Origin: an uncultured Bacteroidia bacterium
GTDB taxonomy: Bacteria; Bacteroidota; Bacteroidia; J057; CALLMJ01
Direction: 5' to 3'
Assembly: GCA_938005475.1 (NCBI GenBank)
Contig: CALLNY010000008.1
Location: forward strand, 1-40,405
DNA length: 40,405 nucleotides
In this document: positions 19,110 to 27,819 of the stretch, one piece after another
How the letters are laid out: each line of letters starts with the position of its first letter
Position numbering within the stretch: the first letter of the stretch is position 1
The notes under the pieces: model-generated
What the model was told of the DNA's origin: nothing
Databases searched by the model: none
Seen by the model: only the letters and a program-made list of their open reading frames with translations
Made by a program: the position numbers and the translations under genes

Positions 19110-20342
19110 TTATTCATATCGTAATGCTTCTATGGGGTCTAATTTTGCGGCTTTGCGAGCAGGATAAATCCCTGATATTACTCCGACTATAAAGCAAATC
19201 ATAACGGATAAAATTACCCATTTCCATGGAATAATAAATTCATTACCTAAAAAACTACCTATGAGATTACCCATTCCAATACCCATTAAAGTACCAACTA
19301 ATCCACCTATTTGGCAAATCACGATGGCTTCCATTAAAAATTGAAATAAAATATGATTTTGAGTTGCTCCTAATGCTTTTCTCAATCCTATTTCTTTGGT
19401 TCTTTCCGTAACGGAAACAAGCATGATGTTCATTAATCCAATAGATGCACCAAACAAGGTAATTAAAGCTATTGCAGTTGCTGATAGTGTTAATAAAGCT
19501 AAATTTTCCATTAAAGATTCTATAAAAGAGTCACTTTTTACTACTACAAAGTTATTTTCTTCACTAGGTTTTAATTTTCTTATAATTCTGAATAGACCCG
19601 TTGCTACTTGAATAAAGTAATCAATTTCCTCAGGGTTCTGTACATACGCATTGATGGTATAAGAGCGTTTGTTATCAATAAAGGATTTTCTCATACTGGT
19701 AATTGGGATAATAGCAACTTTATCACCTCCTCCGCCAAAAGAAGTACCTCTTTTTTCTAAAACCCCAATTACACGATAAGGTCTTTTGTCAAGGTTTATA
19801 ATTTTATCTATGGGATAAATTCCAGGGAAAATTTTATCTTTTACATCCGAACCCAATACAACCACATCTCTACCAAATTCTACATCTTCTTTTGTAATGC
19901 TTCGCCCTTCTGCAATTTGATATCCTTCCACAACTAAAAAATTTTCATCTGTTCCTTTGATAGCAACATTGTTATTGGTAACAAAATTTAGGTATTTAGC
20001 TTTACCTGCTTGATTAGCCACGGCATTAATATTCGCAGGAATGCCTAAATTTTCCAATTTTTCTTTTATTTGAGAAGCTTGCATAAAACTAATTTCAGGA
20101 TATTGGATTTTTTTTGCTCTTGATCCTCCTATACGAAAATTACTTTCTCGGTTCTGTATCTTAAAAGTATTAGCTCCCAGTGTTGTAAAACTACTTGCTA
20201 ACCAATATTTTATACTATCAATAGAAGTTAAAACTCCTACAATAGCCATAATACCAAAAGCTATAATCAATATTGTAATGCCCGCTCTCAATAAATTAGA
20301 ACGAATCGCTTCTATTGCTTGTCGCAAATTCTCCCAAAACAT
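19110..20342 (-). CDS. MacB/FtsX-type ABC transporter permease
   Basis: The start is the ATG at 20342 ([16 protein letters not shown], 410 residues); a TTG two codons earlier overlaps the -7 box. Architecture is that of MacB-like permeases: one N-terminal membrane helix (about 16-38), a periplasmic core (about 45-265), then three membrane helices in the FtsX domain (about 280-400) with the signature [31 protein letters not shown] and a closing [20 protein letters not shown]. Such permeases export lipoproteins, peptides or drugs or transmit mechanical force. No ATPase or membrane-fusion gene is adjacent, so its partners lie elsewhere. Confidence 0.93.
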
Positions 20343-20345
20343 GCT

Positions 20346-20353
20346 CAAAAATA
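20346..20353 (-). promoter_or_regulatory. -7 element for the ABC permease gene
   Basis: The minus strand reads TATTTTTG, only 3 nt before the ATG at 20342, implying a nearly leaderless message. Confidence 0.4.
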
Positions 20354-20720
20354 AATCTTTTGTAACACTATTACATTCTTAAAAATTCATTTATGGCTTT
20401 TTTTATCCTTTTATCATTATCAAGCATAAAATTTAAGTTTTTTAAAACAACGTATAGAAAATAATAAGGAAGTTTTTCTTACTCTGGAAAAATTTGCTTC
20501 AAAGTATAAATTCAATGAAATTATTCCTTAACAATAACCCAATTTTTAAATTCAAGAAAAATTACTATATTATTCAGTAAGTTATAAATATTCTGATTTT
20601 AAGGAAGTTACTTATAGAAGCCCGAGCTAAGGAATTTGATGAACATAAAACCTAGTTCAATAATCCAATTAGTGCGAGTTCGTATTATAAAAATAAGTTC
20701 TTAAAAAAATCAAAAAAAAT
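20354..20720. other. Gene-free stretch with possible eroded coding remnants
   Basis: No intact gene is seen. On the plus strand two short stretches read like protein but are broken by stops: NKEVFLTLEKFASKYKFNEIIP at about 20480-20540, and RKLLIEARAKEFDEHK then FNNPISASSYYKNKFLKK at about 20602-20712. They are not recognised as any family and could be chance. The rest is AT-rich with no strong hairpin. Confidence 0.3.
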
Positions 20721-20751
20721 TTTGTAATTAAAATCTTATATTGCAATTTTG
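20721..20751 (+). promoter_or_regulatory. hisGp: Promoter of the histidine operon
   Basis: TTTG at 20721-20724 and CAATTTTG at 20744-20751 are separated by 19 nt, matching the Bacteroidota TTTG-N19-21-TAnnTTTG pattern with one mismatch. It places transcription start near 20756, about 140 nt before the hisG start and just upstream of the His-rich leader ORF. Confidence 0.65.
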
Positions 20752-20777
20752 TGCTTACAAGTAACAATGAAAGATAA

Positions 20778-20822
20778 ATGCTTGTTCATCATATTAAATA
20801 TTTCGTTTTCATTGAGCATTAA
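20778..20822 (+). CDS. hisL: Histidine operon leader peptide
   Basis: This is a 14-codon ORF, MLVHHIKYFVFIEH. Three of its codons are His (CAT): a tandem pair at 20787-20792, and the last codon at 20817-20819 directly before TAA. It lies between the predicted promoter and a terminator in front of hisG, the arrangement of an amino-acid-operon attenuator leader. It is too short to detect by length alone; the support is His content plus context. A competing 40-residue frame (ATG 20767 to TAA 20889) has no His codon and runs through the terminator, so it is less likely to be the control peptide. Confidence 0.6.
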   Translation: MLVHHIKYFVFIEH

Positions 20823-20841
20823 TCAAGTAATGATTTCAATG
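20810..20841 (+). promoter_or_regulatory. Leader hairpin overlapping the leader stop codon
   Basis: Two stacked helices, CATTGA/TCAATG (20810-20815 with 20836-20841) and CATTA/TAATG (20817-20821 with 20828-20832), have a 6-nt loop and a small internal loop. The last His codon and most of the stop codon lie in the left arm. A ribosome finishing the leader would therefore prevent this helix, while one stalled at the CAT-CAT pair would leave it free. Its exact role is inferred. Confidence 0.5.
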
Positions 20842-20852
20842 TTATTAAGTAC

Positions 20853-20880
20853 ACCGCTAAACTCCAATTTAGCGGTTTTT
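20853..20880 (+). terminator. Attenuator terminator before hisG
   Basis: A perfect 9-bp stem ACCGCTAAA / TTTAGCGGT (20853-20861 with 20868-20876) with a 6-nt loop is followed by TTTTGTTTTG. It is GC-richer than its surroundings and lies 16 nt before the hisG ATG, so it can act only on transcripts entering the his genes. Confidence 0.8.
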
Positions 20881-20896
20881 GTTTTGTAAAAACACT

Positions 20897-21754
20897 ATGG
20901 AAAAACTAAAATTGGCAGTACAAAAGAGTGGTAGATTAAGTGAAAAATCATTACAACTACTCAAAGAATGTGGTATTAAATTATTAAATGAAGACCGTAA
21001 GTTAAGGTCTATTGCGAGTAATTTTCAATTAGAAATTTTATATTTGCGAGATGATGATATACCTCAATATGTTGAGCAAGGCGTCGCTGATACAGGTATA
21101 GTAGGTTTAAATGAGGTACATGAACAACAAAAAAACGTGGTTTTAGTGGAGTATCTTGGCTTTGCTAACTGCCGATTATCATTAGCTATACCCAAAGAAG
21201 AGGCTTATACGGGGCTTCGTTATTTTGAAAATAAAAAGATTGCAACAAGCTATCCTAATATTTTGAGAAGTTTCTTTGAACAACATCATATATCCGTAGA
21301 AATTGAAACCATAGGTGGAAGCGTAGAAATTGCACCGAGTATCGGTCTTTCCCAGGCTATTTTTGATATTGTAAGTACAGGTAGTACTTTGATAATGAAT
21401 GGTTTAAAAGAAGTTCATACGGTCATGAAAAGTGAAGCTGTGCTTATAAGAAATTTCCAATGTTCTGAAAACAAAATGTTAATTTTAGAAAAATTGCTCT
21501 TTCGAATTAGAGCTGTAAAGAATGCCTCTGAGAATAAGTATATTTTGTTAAATGCACCAAACGAGGTTATTCCCCAGATAGTTCAAATTTTACCAGGAAT
21601 GAAAAGTCCAACAATCCTACCATTAGCCCAAGAAGGCTGGAGTAGTTTACATTCTGTTGTTAAAGAAGACCAGTTCTGGGACATTATAGACCAATTAAAA
21701 GCACTCGGGGCACAAGGTATTTTGGTTTGTTCAATAGAAAAAATGGTAATTTAA
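20897..21754 (+). CDS. hisG: ATP phosphoribosyltransferase (long form)
   Basis: This is the first step of histidine synthesis, ATP + PRPP to phosphoribosyl-ATP. The chosen ATG at 20897 (MEKLKLAVQKSGRLSEKS) gives 285 residues; a TTG at 20879 would start inside the terminator tail. The catalytic part shows the PRPP loop DIVSTGSTL (157-165). The last ~75 residues (to SIEKMVI) form the C-terminal regulatory domain that marks long-form HisG, which binds histidine for feedback inhibition and does not need HisZ. It heads an eight-gene operon behind the leader/terminator, with hisD 13 nt downstream. Confidence 0.97.
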   Translation: MEKLKLAVQKSGRLSEKSLQLLKECGIKLLNEDRKLRSIASNFQLEILYLRDDDIPQYVEQGVADTGIVGLNEVHEQQKNVVLVEYLGFANCRLSLAIPKEEAYTGLRYFENKKIATSYPNILRSFFEQHHISVEIETIGGSVEIAPSIGLSQAIFDIVSTGSTLIMNGLKEVHTVMKSEAVLIRNFQCSENKMLILEKLLFRIRAVKNASENKYILLNAPNEVIPQIVQILPGMKSPTILPLAQEGWSSLHSVVKEDQFWDIIDQLKALGAQGILVCSIEKMVI

Positions 21755-21767
21755 AAAATATAAATTT

Positions 21768-23048
21768 ATGATTAAAATATATCATAATCCAGAAAAAGAT
21801 TCTTGGAAATCCTTAATTCAAAGACCCAAAATAAAGACAGATCTTTTAAAAAGTTTAGTACAAGAGGTATTTGGAAATGTTAAAAAAAATGGAGATGTTG
21901 CATTAAAACAATATACCGAACAATTTGATAAAGTAAAAATTGATGATTTCTTAGTTAGCAAAGAGGAAATTGAAAATGCATATAATTGCATAAATATTGA
22001 ATTGAGAAGTGCAATTGTAGATGCGGGCAACAACATTAAAGAATTTCACTGTCATTTTAAGGAGAAGCGTAAAGTAATTCAAACTAAACCAGGAGTAAGA
22101 TGTTGGACGGAGGCACGCCCAATTGAAAAAGTAGGAATTTATGTTCCTGGAGGCACGGCTCCCTTATTTTCAACTGTTTTAATGCTTGCTATTCCTGCCT
22201 ATTTAGCAGGTTGTCAAGAAATTATTTTGTGTACGCCTCCAAATTCAGAAGGGAAAATACATCCTGCGATTTTGTTTGCCGCTTTTAATTCTGGTGTAAC
22301 AAAAATTTTCAAAGTGGGAGGTATTCAGGCTATTGCCGCCATGGCGCTGGGCACTGAATCTATTCCATGTGTCCATAAAATATTTGGTCCTGGTAACCAA
22401 TATGTTACAGCCGCCAAAGAATATGCATTGACCATAGGAACCGCAATTGATATGCCTGCTGGACCCAGTGAAGTTTTAATTATTGCTGATAATTACGCTA
22501 ATCCTGATTTTATAGCGGCTGACTTATTGGCTCAAGCCGAACATGGAGTAGATAGTCAAGTAGTTCTACTTTCGAATAACTCTACCATCCTACAAAAAAC
22601 CTTGTTTGCTTTGAAAGAACAACTTGAAAACTTACCACGAAAATCCATCGCTCAAAAAGCATTAGAGAACAGCTTCTTCATTGAATTTTCTGACTGGGAT
22701 ACTTGTTTTGATTTTTCTAATGAATATGCTCCTGAACATTTGATTTTAGCAGTTAAAAAACCTAAAAAATATGTTTCTAAAATAAAAAATGCAGGCTCCG
22801 TATTTTTAGGAAAATACAGTTGTGAAAGTGCAGGCGATTATGCAAGCGGTACTAATCATACTTTACCCACCGCTGGTTTTGCCAAAGTTTATAGTGGTGT
22901 ATCCGTTGAAAGTTTTATGAAAAAAATTACCTTCCAAAAAATTTCAAAAAAAGGGCTGTTTAATTTAGGGCATACTATCGAAACGATGGCTGAATTTGAA
23001 GAGTTATATGGTCACAAAAATGCAGTTTCTATACGTTTAAAAAATTAA
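21768..23048 (+). CDS. hisD: Histidinol dehydrogenase
   Basis: This 426-residue enzyme performs the last two oxidations, histidinol to histidine, with NAD+ and zinc. Conserved blocks are VGIYVPGGTAPLFSTVLM, KIFGPGNQYVTAAKEYA (from about 204), DMPAGPSEVLIIAD, LLAQAEHGVDSQ with zinc ligands, and EYAPEHL with the catalytic Glu323-His324. The C-terminal SAGDYASGTNHTLPT completes the signature. Length is standard. It lies 13 nt after hisG and 3 nt before hisC. Confidence 0.98.
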   Translation: MIKIYHNPEKDSWKSLIQRPKIKTDLLKSLVQEVFGNVKKNGDVALKQYTEQFDKVKIDDFLVSKEEIENAYNCINIELRSAIVDAGNNIKEFHCHFKEKRKVIQTKPGVRCWTEARPIEKVGIYVPGGTAPLFSTVLMLAIPAYLAGCQEIILCTPPNSEGKIHPAILFAAFNSGVTKIFKVGGIQAIAAMALGTESIPCVHKIFGPGNQYVTAAKEYALTIGTAIDMPAGPSEVLIIADNYANPDFIAADLLAQAEHGVDSQVVLLSNNSTILQKTLFALKEQLENLPRKSIAQKALENSFFIEFSDWDTCFDFSNEYAPEHLILAVKKPKKYVSKIKNAGSVFLGKYSCESAGDYASGTNHTLPTAGFAKVYSGVSVESFMKKITFQKISKKGLFNLGHTIETMAEFEELYGHKNAVSIRLKN

Positions 23049-23051
23049 AAA

Positions 23052-24083
23052 ATGTTTGATATTCAAAGTTTTATAAGAAAAAATATTTTAAAGTTAACAC
23101 CATATTCTAGCGCTAGAAGCGAATTTAATAGTGGAGAGGGAATTCTTTTAGATGCTAACGAGAACCCTTATGGTAGTTACAATCGATATCCCGACCCTTA
23201 TCAAAAAATTATTAAAAAAACTATTTCTGATATCAAACAAGTTAATGAAAATCAAATCTTTCTTGGTAATGGTAGCGATGAGGTTTTAGATGTTATTATG
23301 AGAGTTTTCTTACAACCTCAACAGGATAGTTTATTAATTTTTCCACCTACCTATGGTATGTACGAAGTGCTTGCAAACATAAACGAAATACCTTTACATG
23401 TTATCCCCCTGAACAAAGAATTTCAATTAGATATTCCTAAAATTAAGGATTTTATAAGTTACAATAAATCTAAAATGGCTATTATTTGTAGTCCCAATAA
23501 TCCAACGGGAAATTCCGTTTATAATATTGAAGAATTTTTATCCATTTTTAGTGGTATTGTGGTTATTGATGAGGCATACATTGATTTTTCAAACCAAACT
23601 TCTTACTTGAATAAGCTAAATAAATATTCTCAACTAATTATTATTCAAACATTTAGTAAATCATGGGGGCTTGCTGGAATAAGAGTAGGAATGGCTTTTG
23701 CTCATCCTTTGATTATTCATTACATGAATGCTATAAAATATCCTTATAATATAAGCGTTCCTAATCAACAAGTTTTAGCTAACGCATTAAAACAATTTCA
23801 TAAAATACAAAAAAAAATTCAAGTAATTTTAAAAAATCGAAAATTACTTATAGAAGGCTTACAATCAATAAAGCTTGTAAAAAAAATTTTTCCTACTGAT
23901 GCAAACTTTGTTTTAGTAGAAGTTACCGATGCAAACTTTATTTATCAAAGTTTGTTAGATATTCCTATCGTGGTCCGTAATAGACATTCACAAATTCCTA
24001 ATACTTTAAGAATTACTGTTGGAACAAAAAAAGAAATAAAAAGTTTATTGAACCAGTTAAGTGAATTAGATAAAATTTTATGA
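23052..24083 (+). CDS. hisC: Histidinol-phosphate aminotransferase
   Basis: A 343-residue fold-type I PLP enzyme converting imidazole-acetol phosphate to histidinol phosphate. Landmarks are [17 protein letters not shown] (33-49), the GNGSDEVLD phosphate-binding region (72-80), CSPNNPTGN (146-154), VIDEAYIDF (171-179), and [13 protein letters not shown] with Schiff-base Lys203. Its stop overlaps the hisB start by 4 nt (ATGA), indicating translational coupling. Confidence 0.97.
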
Positions 24084-25174
24084 AAAAAAAAGTTTTATTT
24101 ATAGATCGTGATGGTACTTTAATCATAGAACCACTTCCTGATAGACAAGTGGATAGTTTAGAAAAATTAGAATTTTATCCTGGTGTTTTCCAAAATTTAT
24201 CTAAGATAGCCCATGAATTAGATTATGAGCTGGTAATAGTTACCAATCAAGATGGTTTAGGTACGGAGAGTTTTCCTGAGGAAACTTTCTGGCCTGCACA
24301 TCAAAAAATGCTTAGAGCCTTTGAAAATGAAGGTATTATATTTAATGCAGTTCATATAGATAGGACCTTTGAGCACGAAAAAGCACCTACACGTAAGCCA
24401 GGTACAGGAATGCTAACTCGTTATTTTTCCCAAGAGTATGATTTAAAAAACTCTTTTGTAATTGGTGATAGAATCACTGACGTTCTACTTGCGAAAAATT
24501 TAGGTGCTCGGTCTATTTTATTGAATAATTTAGATTGTCCCGAAGCTGATTTAGTAACTAATTCATGGAGAGATATTTATGAATATTTAAGAGCTTTTAA
24601 ACGTTCTGCCATCGTACATAGAAAAACTAAGGAAACAGATATTACAGTCAAAATTGCATTAGAGGGTTCGGGAAAAAGCAATATTTGTACGGGTTTATTT
24701 TTTTTAGACCACATGTTAGAACAAATTCCAAAACATGGACTCGTTGATTTAACTATTGAAGCTCATGGAGATTTACATATAGATGAACACCACACAGTAG
24801 AGGATGTAGCAATTACGTTAGGTCAAGCTTTTTATCAAGCAATGGGGTCAAAAAAAGGAATAAATCGTTATGGATTTTTGTTACCTATGGATGATAGCGT
24901 AGCTTATGCTGCAATTGACTTGGGTGGGCGTTCTGATTTGATTTGGAAAGTAAAATTTAAACGAGAAAGGATTGGAGATGTTTCAACAGAATTGTTCAAA
25001 CATTTTTTTAAATCTTTTTGTGATTATGCTAAATGCAATTTATATGTTAAAGCAAAAGGTAAAAACGAGCATCACAAAATTGAAAGTATTTTTAAAGCAT
25101 TTGCCAAAGCCATTTATATGGCAATACAAATCAATCCTAATCAAAATTTACCATCAACTAAAGGAATGCTATGA
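24080..25174 (+). CDS. hisB: Bifunctional histidinol-phosphatase / imidazoleglycerol-phosphate dehydratase
   Basis: This is a 364-residue fusion. Residues 1 to about 165 are a HAD-type phosphatase (FIDRDGTL, nucleophile Asp9 and Asp11; [25 protein letters not shown]). The cysteines and histidines of the Zn-loop form of HisB-N are not obvious. Residues ~175-364 are IGP dehydratase ([47 protein letters not shown]) with the metal-binding histidines. The fusion is the same arrangement as in enterobacteria and is common in Bacteroidota. It overlaps hisC and hisH by 4 nt each. Confidence 0.97.
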
Positions 25175-25752
25175 TTGCTATTATCGATTACGGAGCAGGA
25201 AATATAACTTCAATTAAAAATATACTAAAATTATTGAATTTAGAAGTAATAATTACAAATCAAAAAGAATTACTCAAACAAGCAGATAAAATTATATTCC
25301 CTGGCGTTGGTCATGCAAAATATGCAATGCAAAAATTACAGGATTATGATTTAATTGAATTTATACAAAATTTAGAAAAACCATTTTTAGGAATTTGTTT
25401 AGGGTTACAACTTATGTGTACTAACACAGAGGAAGGAAATACAAAAGGATTATCTATTATTCCAGCAAAAGTAAAAAAGTTACCGTCAGATGATATAATA
25501 CCTCACATGGGCTGGAATAATGTTCATTATCAAGATGATACTTGTTTGTTTAAAGACATAATGCAAGATAGTGATTTTTATTTTGTGCATAGTTATTATG
25601 TAGAGCCAAATGAATATTGCATAGCAAAAAGCGAATATATCCTGGAGTTTTGCAGTGCAGTACAAAAGGATAATTTTTATGGAGTTCAATTCCATCCAGA
25701 AAAGTCTGGAAATGTAGGTAAAAAATTATTAGAAAATTTTTTAAGTTTATAA
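25171..25752 (+). CDS. hisH: Imidazole glycerol phosphate synthase, glutaminase subunit
   Basis: A 193-residue class-I glutamine amidotransferase that supplies ammonia to HisF. The catalytic triad is visible: Cys76 in [11 protein letters not shown], and His175 with Glu177 in [11 protein letters not shown]. The IIFPGVGHA loop (41-49), with PGVG forming the oxyanion region, is intact. It overlaps hisB by 4 nt and is 4 nt before hisA. The AT bias is stronger here than in its neighbours, but reading and motifs are uninterrupted. Confidence 0.97.
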
Positions 25753-25756
25753 AAAT

Positions 25757-26473
25757 ATGAGAATAATACCTGCTATTGATTTAATGGACGGAAAATGCGT
25801 ACGATTAACTCAAGGAAATTATGAACAAAAAAAAGTGTACAATGCAAATCCCCTTGAGGTAGCCAAAATTTTTGAAGATAATGGTTTAGAGTATCTTCAT
25901 TTAGTGGATTTGGAGGGAGCTAAAGCTCAAAGAGTGGTTCACTACAAAATTCTAGAACAGATTTGTAATCAAACGAAGTTGAAAGTGGATTTTAGTGGAG
26001 GGATAAAAACCGAAGAAGACTTAAAAATTGTCATGGAATCGGGAGCCTATCAAGCTTGTATAGGTTCAATAGCCGCAAAAAATCCTGAACTTTTTTTAGA
26101 ATGGTTACAACGCTATAGTGCAGAAAAAATTGTGTTAAGTGCCGATGTGAAGCATGAGAAAGTAATGATACATGGATGGACCGAAAAAACAGATTGGTCC
26201 ATTTATGAATTTTTACAGCAATTTTTAAACTATTCATTGAAATATGTCATTTGTACCGATATAGTGAAAGATGGTACACTTACTGGACCTTCATATGAGC
26301 TATATCTTCAAATACTTCGTAAACTTCCATCAATTCATTTAATAGCGAGTGGTGGGGTTCACCATGAAAAAGATATAGAAGGGCTAAAAAATTTGGGTTG
26401 TGAAGGAGTTATAGTAGGAAAAGCAATTTATGAGGGTAAAATATCTATTAGAAGTTTACTAAAATATGCTTAA
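25757..26473 (+). CDS. hisA: Phosphoribosylformimino-AICAR-phosphate isomerase
   Basis: A 238-residue (beta-alpha)8 isomerase opening the ProFAR ring to PRFAR. It begins IIPAIDLMDGKCVRLTQG with the catalytic Asp8. The second catalytic aspartate is in LSADVKH (about 129). The phosphate-binding loops are DFSGGIKTEED and IASGGVHHEKD. Two half-barrel repeats are evident from these paired GG loops. The stop overlaps hisF by 8 nt. Confidence 0.97.
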   Translation: MRIIPAIDLMDGKCVRLTQGNYEQKKVYNANPLEVAKIFEDNGLEYLHLVDLEGAKAQRVVHYKILEQICNQTKLKVDFSGGIKTEEDLKIVMESGAYQACIGSIAAKNPELFLEWLQRYSAEKIVLSADVKHEKVMIHGWTEKTDWSIYEFLQQFLNYSLKYVICTDIVKDGTLTGPSYELYLQILRKLPSIHLIASGGVHHEKDIEGLKNLGCEGVIVGKAIYEGKISIRSLLKYA

Positions 26474-27230
26474 AAAAAGAATTATACCTTGTTTAGATAT
26501 TCGGGATGGAAGGGTTGTAAAAGGCGTAAAATTTGAGAATTTACGAGATAGTGGTGACCCAGTAGAATTAGCGTATCGTTATATGCAAGAAGGAGCAGAT
26601 GAACTTGTTTTTTTGGATATAACAGCTACACAAGATGCAAGACGAACCTTAATTGAGTGGGTTAAAAAAGTAGCAGAGGTTTTACTTATTCCTTTTACCG
26701 TAGGTGGTGGTATCAGAAATTTAAGTGATGTTGAAGCGATACTGTATGCTGGAGCTGACAAAATCAGTATCAATTCTATTGCAGTTAAAAATCCGCAAAT
26801 TATTGAAGAGATAGCCAAGCAATTTGGTAGTCAATTTGTTGTAGTTGCTATTGATACGAAAAAGAAAGAAAATCAAAACCAAGTTTTTATTTCAGGTGGA
26901 AAAATTGGAACGGGATTACAAACAGAAAATTGGTGTAAGCAAGTAGAAAATTTGGGTGCTGGTGAAATATTGTTAACTTCAATGGACCATGACGGAGAAA
27001 AAAACGGTTTCGCTATTGATATACTTAAAAAAATTACCAATACAGTGAAAATTCCTGTGATTGCATCAGGTGGAGCAGGAAATGTAGAACACTTTTTGGA
27101 GGTTTTTCAGAAAACTCAGGTTACGGCTGCATTAGCCGCTAGTGTCTTTCATTATAAAATCATACCAATTGTTGAATTAAAGCAATTTTTACATAAAAAT
27201 TCAATACCTATAAGATATGAAAAAAATTAA
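26466..27230 (+). CDS. hisF: Imidazole glycerol phosphate synthase, cyclase subunit
   Basis: A 254-residue barrel that uses HisH-derived ammonia to form IGP and AICAR. The start MLKKRIIPCLDIRDGRVVKG carries catalytic Asp11. The second catalytic residue is Asp130 in VVVAIDTKK. Phosphate loops are TVGGGIRN (78-85) and IASGGAGN. It overlaps hisA by 8 nt and hisIE by 14 nt, so the ATG of hisIE lies within the hisF end. Confidence 0.98.
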   Translation: MLKKRIIPCLDIRDGRVVKGVKFENLRDSGDPVELAYRYMQEGADELVFLDITATQDARRTLIEWVKKVAEVLLIPFTVGGGIRNLSDVEAILYAGADKISINSIAVKNPQIIEEIAKQFGSQFVVVAIDTKKKENQNQVFISGGKIGTGLQTENWCKQVENLGAGEILLTSMDHDGEKNGFAIDILKKITNTVKIPVIASGGAGNVEHFLEVFQKTQVTAALAASVFHYKIIPIVELKQFLHKNSIPIRYEKN

Positions 27231-27819
27231 CTTTGAAAAAGGTAATGGGCTTGTTCCGGTAATAATACAAAACGCTTATAATGAGCAAGTTTTAATGTTA
27301 GGGTTCATGAATGAAGAAGCCTACCAAAAAACGATGGATGAGAAAAAAGTTACTTTTTACAGCCGAAGTAAAAATCGGTTATGGACAAAAGGAGAGACCA
27401 CGGGGCATTATTTGATAGTCAAAGAAATCTATTTAGATTGCGATGAAGATACTTTGTTAATCAAGGTTGAGCCTCAAGGTCCAACTTGTCATAGAGGGAC
27501 AGTGAGCTGTTTTGATGAAGAATATGAAAAGGGTTTTCTCTATGAACTACAAACTATTCAAAATCGTAGAATAGAAGAAAAAAATTCAGAATCTTACACG
27601 TATCAATTGTATCAAAAGGGCATCAACAAAATCGCACAAAAGGTAGGAGAAGAGGCAGTGGAATTGGTTCTAGAAGCCAAAGATAATAATATAGAATTAT
27701 TCAAAAATGAAGCCGCAGATTTGTTGTATCACTTTTTACTTTTATTGAAAGCGAAAGGTCTAGAATTGGAAGATATTGAAAAGATATTAAAGCAACGACA
27801 TCAAGAAGCTCATACTTAA
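27217..27819 (+). CDS. hisI: Bifunctional phosphoribosyl-AMP cyclohydrolase / phosphoribosyl-ATP pyrophosphatase
   Basis: A 200-residue HisIE fusion carrying steps 2 and 3 of the pathway. The N-terminal cyclohydrolase (1 to about 105) has VLMLGFMNEEAY, FYSRSKNRLWTKGETTGH, the metal site DCDEDTLLIKVEPQGPTCHRG, and FDEE. The C-terminal pyrophosphatase (about 110-200) has GINKIAQKVGEEAVELVLEAK and NEAADLLYHFLLLLKAKG, the MazG-like four-helix motif. It is the last his gene, and its final 4 nt overlap the end of the convergent bshB1. Confidence 0.97.
   Translation: MKKINFEKGNGLVPVIIQNAYNEQVLMLGFMNEEAYQKTMDEKKVTFYSRSKNRLWTKGETTGHYLIVKEIYLDCDEDTLLIKVEPQGPTCHRGTVSCFDEEYEKGFLYELQTIQNRRIEEKNSESYTYQLYQKGINKIAQKVGEEAVELVLEAKDNNIELFKNEAADLLYHFLLLLKAKGLELEDIEKILKQRHQEAHT

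Follow-up and report, generated by a model that had tools for sequence, protein, structure and literature searches.

Leader-peptide attenuation of his genes is a classical mode of regulation. A comparative study by Lopatovskaya and others from 2010, cited in PMC4833913, may cover Bacteroidetes. In the enterobacterial his leader (RF00514), a leader peptide containing His codons is encoded ahead of a terminator that precedes hisG, and the position of the ribosome is the signal. His leaders with three to five consecutive His codons, a terminator and an antiterminator have been described in the Bacillus cereus group, Peptostreptococcaceae and Erysipelotrichales (PMC9413887). A transcriptome study of Flavobacterium psychrophilum reported strong indications of leader-peptide attenuation ahead of amino-acid operons and described a structured 5′ element that precedes hisG, is conserved in other Flavobacteriaceae and has no match in Rfam (PMC9723704).

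Here, the region upstream of hisG was analysed in a stretch of 40,405 nucleotides (the window) from an uncultured Bacteroidia bacterium. The window harbours the complete operon hisG-hisD-hisC-hisB(bifunctional)-hisH-hisA-hisF-hisIE (20897-27819; genes named with NCBIfam models), and its hisG is the only one in the genome (2.63 Mb, completeness rated at 100%). The F. psychrophilum element belongs to the same phylum and precedes the same gene, but its anatomy is not given in the main text of that study (PMC9723704), and the window represents another order-level lineage with a copy devoid of an antiterminator. The enterobacterial leader (RF00514) is a chain of hairpins, whereas the relatives of the window within the Bacteroidia have three strands, of which the window lacks the antiterminator strand. 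The leaders reported in PMC9413887 are similar to those of the Bacteroidia in having a His run and a terminator with antiterminator, but they occur in another phylum, and the comparison is one of design. The window copy is best regarded as a degenerate member of an already known kind, since both leader-peptide attenuation and conservation of an element 5′ of hisG have previously been proposed for Flavobacteriaceae.

The his leader of the window

A first-pass annotation of the window listed a promoter, a short ORF with CAT codons, a hairpin and a terminator ahead of hisG, and on direct reading of the sequence all of these parts are present at the positions given there (Table 1). The -7 box of the promoter deviates from the consensus TTTG-N19-TAnnTTTG by a C replacing the first T. 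A third CAT codon of the leader (20817-20819) is located directly before the stop, and the AU-rich hairpin does not extend to the 5′ arm of the terminator (T5). The terminator stem is perfect, consists of 9 bp with 4 G-C pairs and is positioned 20 nt upstream of hisG; no other terminator-like site was found in 700 nt, where shuffles gave an expectation of 0.1. The distance from leader to terminator is 30 nt (mostly 20-40 in relatives), and the hairpin, at -10.7 kcal/mol, ranks 101st in strength among the 106 loci described below. The nearest upstream gene (19110-20348, minus strand) is divergent, starts with TTG and encodes a MacB-like ABC permease; between it and hisG lie 548 nt of A+T-rich DNA.

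An earlier ATG at 20767, unmentioned in the first-pass annotation, opens a frame different from the His frame which continues across the terminator and stops 7 nt ahead of hisG. This ATG occupies the position of the leader start in the genus-mate L003 and is located 15 nt from the -7 box, the corresponding distance in L003 being 14 nt.

When the window upstream DNA was shuffled 3000 times with dinucleotides preserved, 0.5% of the shuffles gave an ATG-initiated ORF that was 6-45 codons long and contained HH and three or more His. By the looser measure of the survey below, the maximum number of His per 8 codons, the window scored 2, which is the weakest score among recognisable leaders and was often reached by shuffles, so that the strong evidence is comparative. 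Neither the window as a whole nor the region 20690-20950, searched up to E 1, matched the His_leader (RF00514), T-box or any other RNA family in Rfam.

As a separate observation on this organism, the model TIGR00118 (acetolactate synthase large subunit, ilvB) matched in 14 of 14 control genomes and had no match in the window's own genome. The organism may be without branched-chain amino-acid synthesis.

Table 1. Features of the his operon and its upstream region in the window.
Feature	Position	Strand	Description
Promoter, Bacteroidota-type	20721..20751	+	TTTG 20721-20724, N19, CAATTTTG 20744-20751
ORF from earlier ATG	20767..20889	+	MKDKCLFIILNISFSLSINQVMISMLLSTPLNSNLAVFVL, 40 codons, without His, stop 20887-20889
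His-frame leader ORF	20778..20822	+	14 codons, MLVHHIKYFVFIEH, then stop TAA 20820-20822
CAT CAT tandem	20787..20792	+	Sole His run in the window leader; typical relatives 3-7
Site corresponding to the antiterminator strand, probably lost	20808..20822	+	TTCATTGAGCATTAA in the window versus TTCATCAGGCGGTGA in genus-mate L003
AU-rich hairpin	20810..20841	+	CATTGA 20810-20815 can pair with TCAATG 20836-20841, leader TAA enclosed
Terminator 5′ arm (T5)	20853..20861	+	ACCGCTAAA
Terminator 3′ arm and T tract	20868..20887	+	3′ arm TTTAGCGGT (20868-20876), tail TTTTTGTTTTG
hisG	20897..21754	+	285 aa, first operon gene, ATG 20897, TIGR00070 191.6 bits
hisD, hisC, hisB (bifunctional), hisH, hisA, hisF, hisIE	21768..27819	+	All frames open

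His leaders across the Bacteroidia

Among 159 distinct regions upstream of hisG in genomes of the same class (Bacteroidia), 145 contained a short ORF in which a stretch of 8 codons included 3 or more His, and in 129 such a stretch included 4 or more, compared to 11 and 1 in the reverse complements and 27 and 0 in 477 shuffles. Typical leaders of the relatives are MNTNRIHHHHHHHTCSQAR or MKQFTHLHHHHTCLKG. A terminator was recognised after the leader in 106 loci, and 44 of these displayed TTT(G)-N18-21-TAnnTTTG ahead of the leader (reverse-complement control, n = 4), the leader start being found at a median of 17 nt downstream of the motif in the promoter-bearing loci. The relatives L003, L004 and L060 have a perfect TAnnTTTG at N19. 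Across the class, hisG is preceded by a His-leader attenuator whose antiterminator, terminator and promoter follow one common order. The window shares with this class-wide leader the homologous position, the promoter, the His ORF and the terminator before hisG. Conservation of the His codons and the terminator in close relatives, by which the first-pass annotation had proposed to judge its attenuator, is clear among the relatives and only weakly displayed by the window itself. Nine hisG upstream regions (L041, L042, L043, L045, L053, L068, L100, L112 and L126) had no recognised His-rich leader, and these are apparently independent absences. The his leaders of ten relatives gave no match in Rfam, none reaching the gathering score, and the class-wide his leader is without an Rfam model.

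In most of the loci a strand at the end of the leader ORF was complementary to T5. Pairs of strand and T5 were CTCAGGCGAG versus CCCGTCTGAG, GGTAAGCC versus GGCTTACC and AGGCGGTG versus CACCGC, and the two co-varied between families. This antiterminator strand usually falls between 20 nt upstream of the leader stop and a few nt downstream of it, the stretch that a ribosome on the stop codon would cover, and its pairing energy with T5 was -8 to -19 kcal/mol. A nascent-RNA model was applied in which the ribosome footprint reached to about 11 nt beyond the A site and the RNA was included only up to the terminator loop. The median upstream pairing of T5 in this model was 0.69 with the ribosome at the His codons and 0.06 with the ribosome at the stop (103 loci), and the switch exceeded 0.4 in 85% of the loci, compared to 14% after shuffling of the intervening strand. 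When antiterminator strands were permuted between loci, the values were -9.3 for own and -7.4 for cross pairings, and -4.0 for upstream control segments. The advantage of own over other strands is only modest because families share sequence, and the within-locus shuffles and upstream control segments are better controls than the permutation between loci. L060 was negative in the simple switch model despite a duplex of -16.8, since most of the pairing by its strand falls 5′ of the arm as defined, and the model is crude for such cases. Weaker terminator hairpins were also seen in the A+T-rich relatives L004 and L060.

As modelled, the element in the relatives is a three-strand attenuator made up of the leader end, the terminator 5′ arm and the terminator 3′ arm. 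From this anatomy and established attenuation biology we infer ribosome stalling and a response of transcription in the relatives. In the working form, the leader ORF would be translated while being transcribed. With ample His-tRNA, the ribosome would reach the stop and cover the strand there, the terminator would form and transcription would end before hisG. With scarce His-tRNA, the ribosome would stall in the His run, leaving the strand at the stop free to pair with T5, and transcription would continue.

Many relatives have yet another strand, here called S, between the terminator and hisG. In the set of 42 loci in which hisG starts with ATGAG/ATGAA and the terminator is 35-90 nt away, hisG is preceded by S (TTTACTCAGGC and variants); these loci include L061, L062, L125, L050, L153, L139, L123 and about 35 others. 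S was complementary to T5 and the loop at p <= 0.02 in 36 of the 42 loci, 28 of them with complementarity also to the hisG start, whereas 17 other loci gave 2 and 1, respectively. The complementarity extends over 11 bp to T5 and the loop and about 8 bp to the hisG start region. Matched changes were observed for GTTTGAGTACA/TGTACTCAAAC with hisG ATGAGTAC, GTCTGAGCAGA/TCTGCTCAGGC with ATGAGCA, and TTTATTCA with ATGAATAAA. Since S is complementary to both T5 with the loop and the hisG start, these two would be competitors for pairing with S. On starvation, the antiterminator would take T5 and S would be left free to close the hisG start. Equilibrium folding of the read-through RNA predicted that S closes over the hisG start and revealed no condition under which S releases it. 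We tentatively suggest that S could be a second layer coupling transcription attenuation to translation control of hisG, possibly also in trans via the terminated leader RNA. The window is without S, its terminator being only 20 nt from hisG.

The window compared with its genus-mate

The hisG of L003 is 87% identical to that of the window, and L003 has an intact switch with modelled values of 0.56 (stalled) and 0.13 (at stop). The model showed no switch for the window, which gave 0.13 stalled versus 0.14 at stop, the lowest stalled value of the 103 loci. The L003 leader ends in TTCATCAGGCGGTGA and its strand pairs with GGCACCGC at -13.2 kcal/mol; the antiterminator reads GGCGGTGA in the genus-mate and AGCATTAA in the window. 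The window strand pairs with its own T5 at -3.5 kcal/mol and the L003 strand pairs with the same window T5 at -10.0, and thus the arm is kept and the strand is gone. A scan of the whole window leader for an antiterminator with G-U pairs allowed gave a best value of about -3.5 to -3.7 kcal/mol, no better than shuffles, and T5 pairing stayed at 0.05-0.14 with the ribosome masked at any position.

These results bear on several points of the first-pass annotation. A clean antiterminator could not be found there by eye, and it is truly absent from the window, while being present in the genus-mate and most relatives. The last CAT, which had been taken as regulatory, is instead located where the genus-mate has its antiterminator strand, in the altered stretch. 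The folding it suggested, with a ribosome masked at the HH codons, the last His or the stop, left the terminator unchanged each time. The his attenuator it proposed is of the right kind, with relatives throughout the class, but a working switch in the window copy is not supported. The window does have a terminator between the leader and the first gene; it has no antiterminator strand, and in the model no change of structure followed from the position of the ribosome. Its leader contains the tandem CAT and one further CAT in 14 codons, with the start position of the relatives out of frame.

The window and L003 have the start CAATGAAA in common. From the ATG to CATCAT there are 20 nt in the window and 18 nt in L003, so that in the window the His codons are not in the frame of the ancestral start position (20767); the His-frame ORF starts at 20778, 11 nt further downstream. 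From the His run to the stop there are nine codons in both (HHHFLDLKFIRR in L003), and the window leader also has TTCAT, G, C and the stop position in common with L003. Alignment of four relative sequences by MAFFT was unreliable at the leader start, and the comparison of starts uses the common CAATGAAA and the distance from the -7 box. An assembly error as the cause is unlikely, since the antiterminator site differs by several substitutions and not by one indel.

Fate of the switch in the window

The window probably carries a copy of the class-wide ribosome-mediated his attenuator in which the switch has been lost by erosion in this lineage. Its homology, the absence of an antiterminator and the weakness of the terminator are evident from sequence and modelling. 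The strand at the stop no longer fits T5, the His run consists of just two codons and the ancestral start position is not in frame with them. We infer that the histidine response has been lost and that his expression is leaky and constitutive, the remaining weak terminator most likely setting a fixed, leaky read-through into the his genes with little or no response to histidine. The order of change, with the loss in the window, follows from the presence of the strand in the genus-mate and most of the class, and with one genus-mate only, the order of events rests on parsimony.

A counterpoint to erosion is that, with the His-frame ORF, the spacing and the perfect-stem terminator all preserved, the element is better ordered than would be expected long after its loss of function; terminator hairpins are also weaker in the A+T-rich relatives L004 and L060. 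The window copy could still be a histidine attenuator if it worked by a contact invisible to simple base pairing, such as a bound protein, a pause hairpin (e.g. 20810-20841) or a very weak pairing that suffices for a weak terminator. The His-frame ORF with its tandem CAT, the stop position kept relative to L003 and the kept terminator all agree with this, as does the rarity by chance of HH with at least three His in the window DNA (0.5%). We nevertheless find it unlikely, as no leader segment pairs with T5 better than -3.7 kcal/mol, a value equalled by shuffles, and at every ribosome mask T5 pairing was 0.05-0.14 and the folded terminator was intact. It is even less probable that ribosomes from ATG 20767 cross the terminator, block its folding, stop 7 nt before hisG and restart, by which expression would be coupled to leader translation and not to histidine. 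This ATG is found at the start position of the relatives, nearest to the promoter, and its frame is open to 20889. An ATG-initiated ORF through the terminator occurs in only 8 of 106 loci, none of the others starting at or before the canonical leader start, and for leader stops shortly before a gene, distances of 11-14 bp are over-represented in Bacteroidetes (PMC4833913). The 20767 frame could, however, have arisen passively through a frame shift; its peptide is without relatives, the competing start at 20778 is only 11 nt away and there is no close relative in which conservation of the frame could be seen. Plain chance, by which an ordinary terminator happened to be preceded by a random short ORF, is highly improbable: shuffles often give a His score like that of the window (2 in 8 codons), but the window agrees in position, promoter, terminator and His codons with 145 relatives, among them the genus-mate with its 87% hisG identity.

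Alongside the probable erosion of the his switch, the genome has kept an attenuator for trp intact (L173:1304-1430, contig C47), located upstream of a trpE-like gene. Its leader is MEEQFLLINQWWWQIFAYSSRRLNLF (WWW), the strand GCAGTAGGCG in the second half of the leader is opposed to the terminator CGCCTACTG at -15.7 kcal/mol, and the modelled switch was 1.00 versus 0.01. The trp leader gave no Rfam match at the gathering score and, at E up to 1, none to Bacteroid-trp (RF01692), which is a listed Bacteroidetes motif (PMC2864571). It has a three-strand design like that of the his element, but is intact and predicted to sense Trp. The organism thus uses this mechanism of attenuation and retains it for tryptophan, with the his copy as the exception.

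Throughout the Bacteroidia, hisG is regularly subject to histidine attenuation, in a simple three-strand design absent from Rfam. For annotation, the window gives a warning that a His-rich ORF and a terminator are insufficient to call a working attenuator. It would represent a natural case in which the antiterminator strand was lost, the leader and terminator remain, and an intact trp attenuator is found in the same genome; with such a pair of an eroded his and an intact trp element, one can test how an operon under attenuation persists once its switch is lost.
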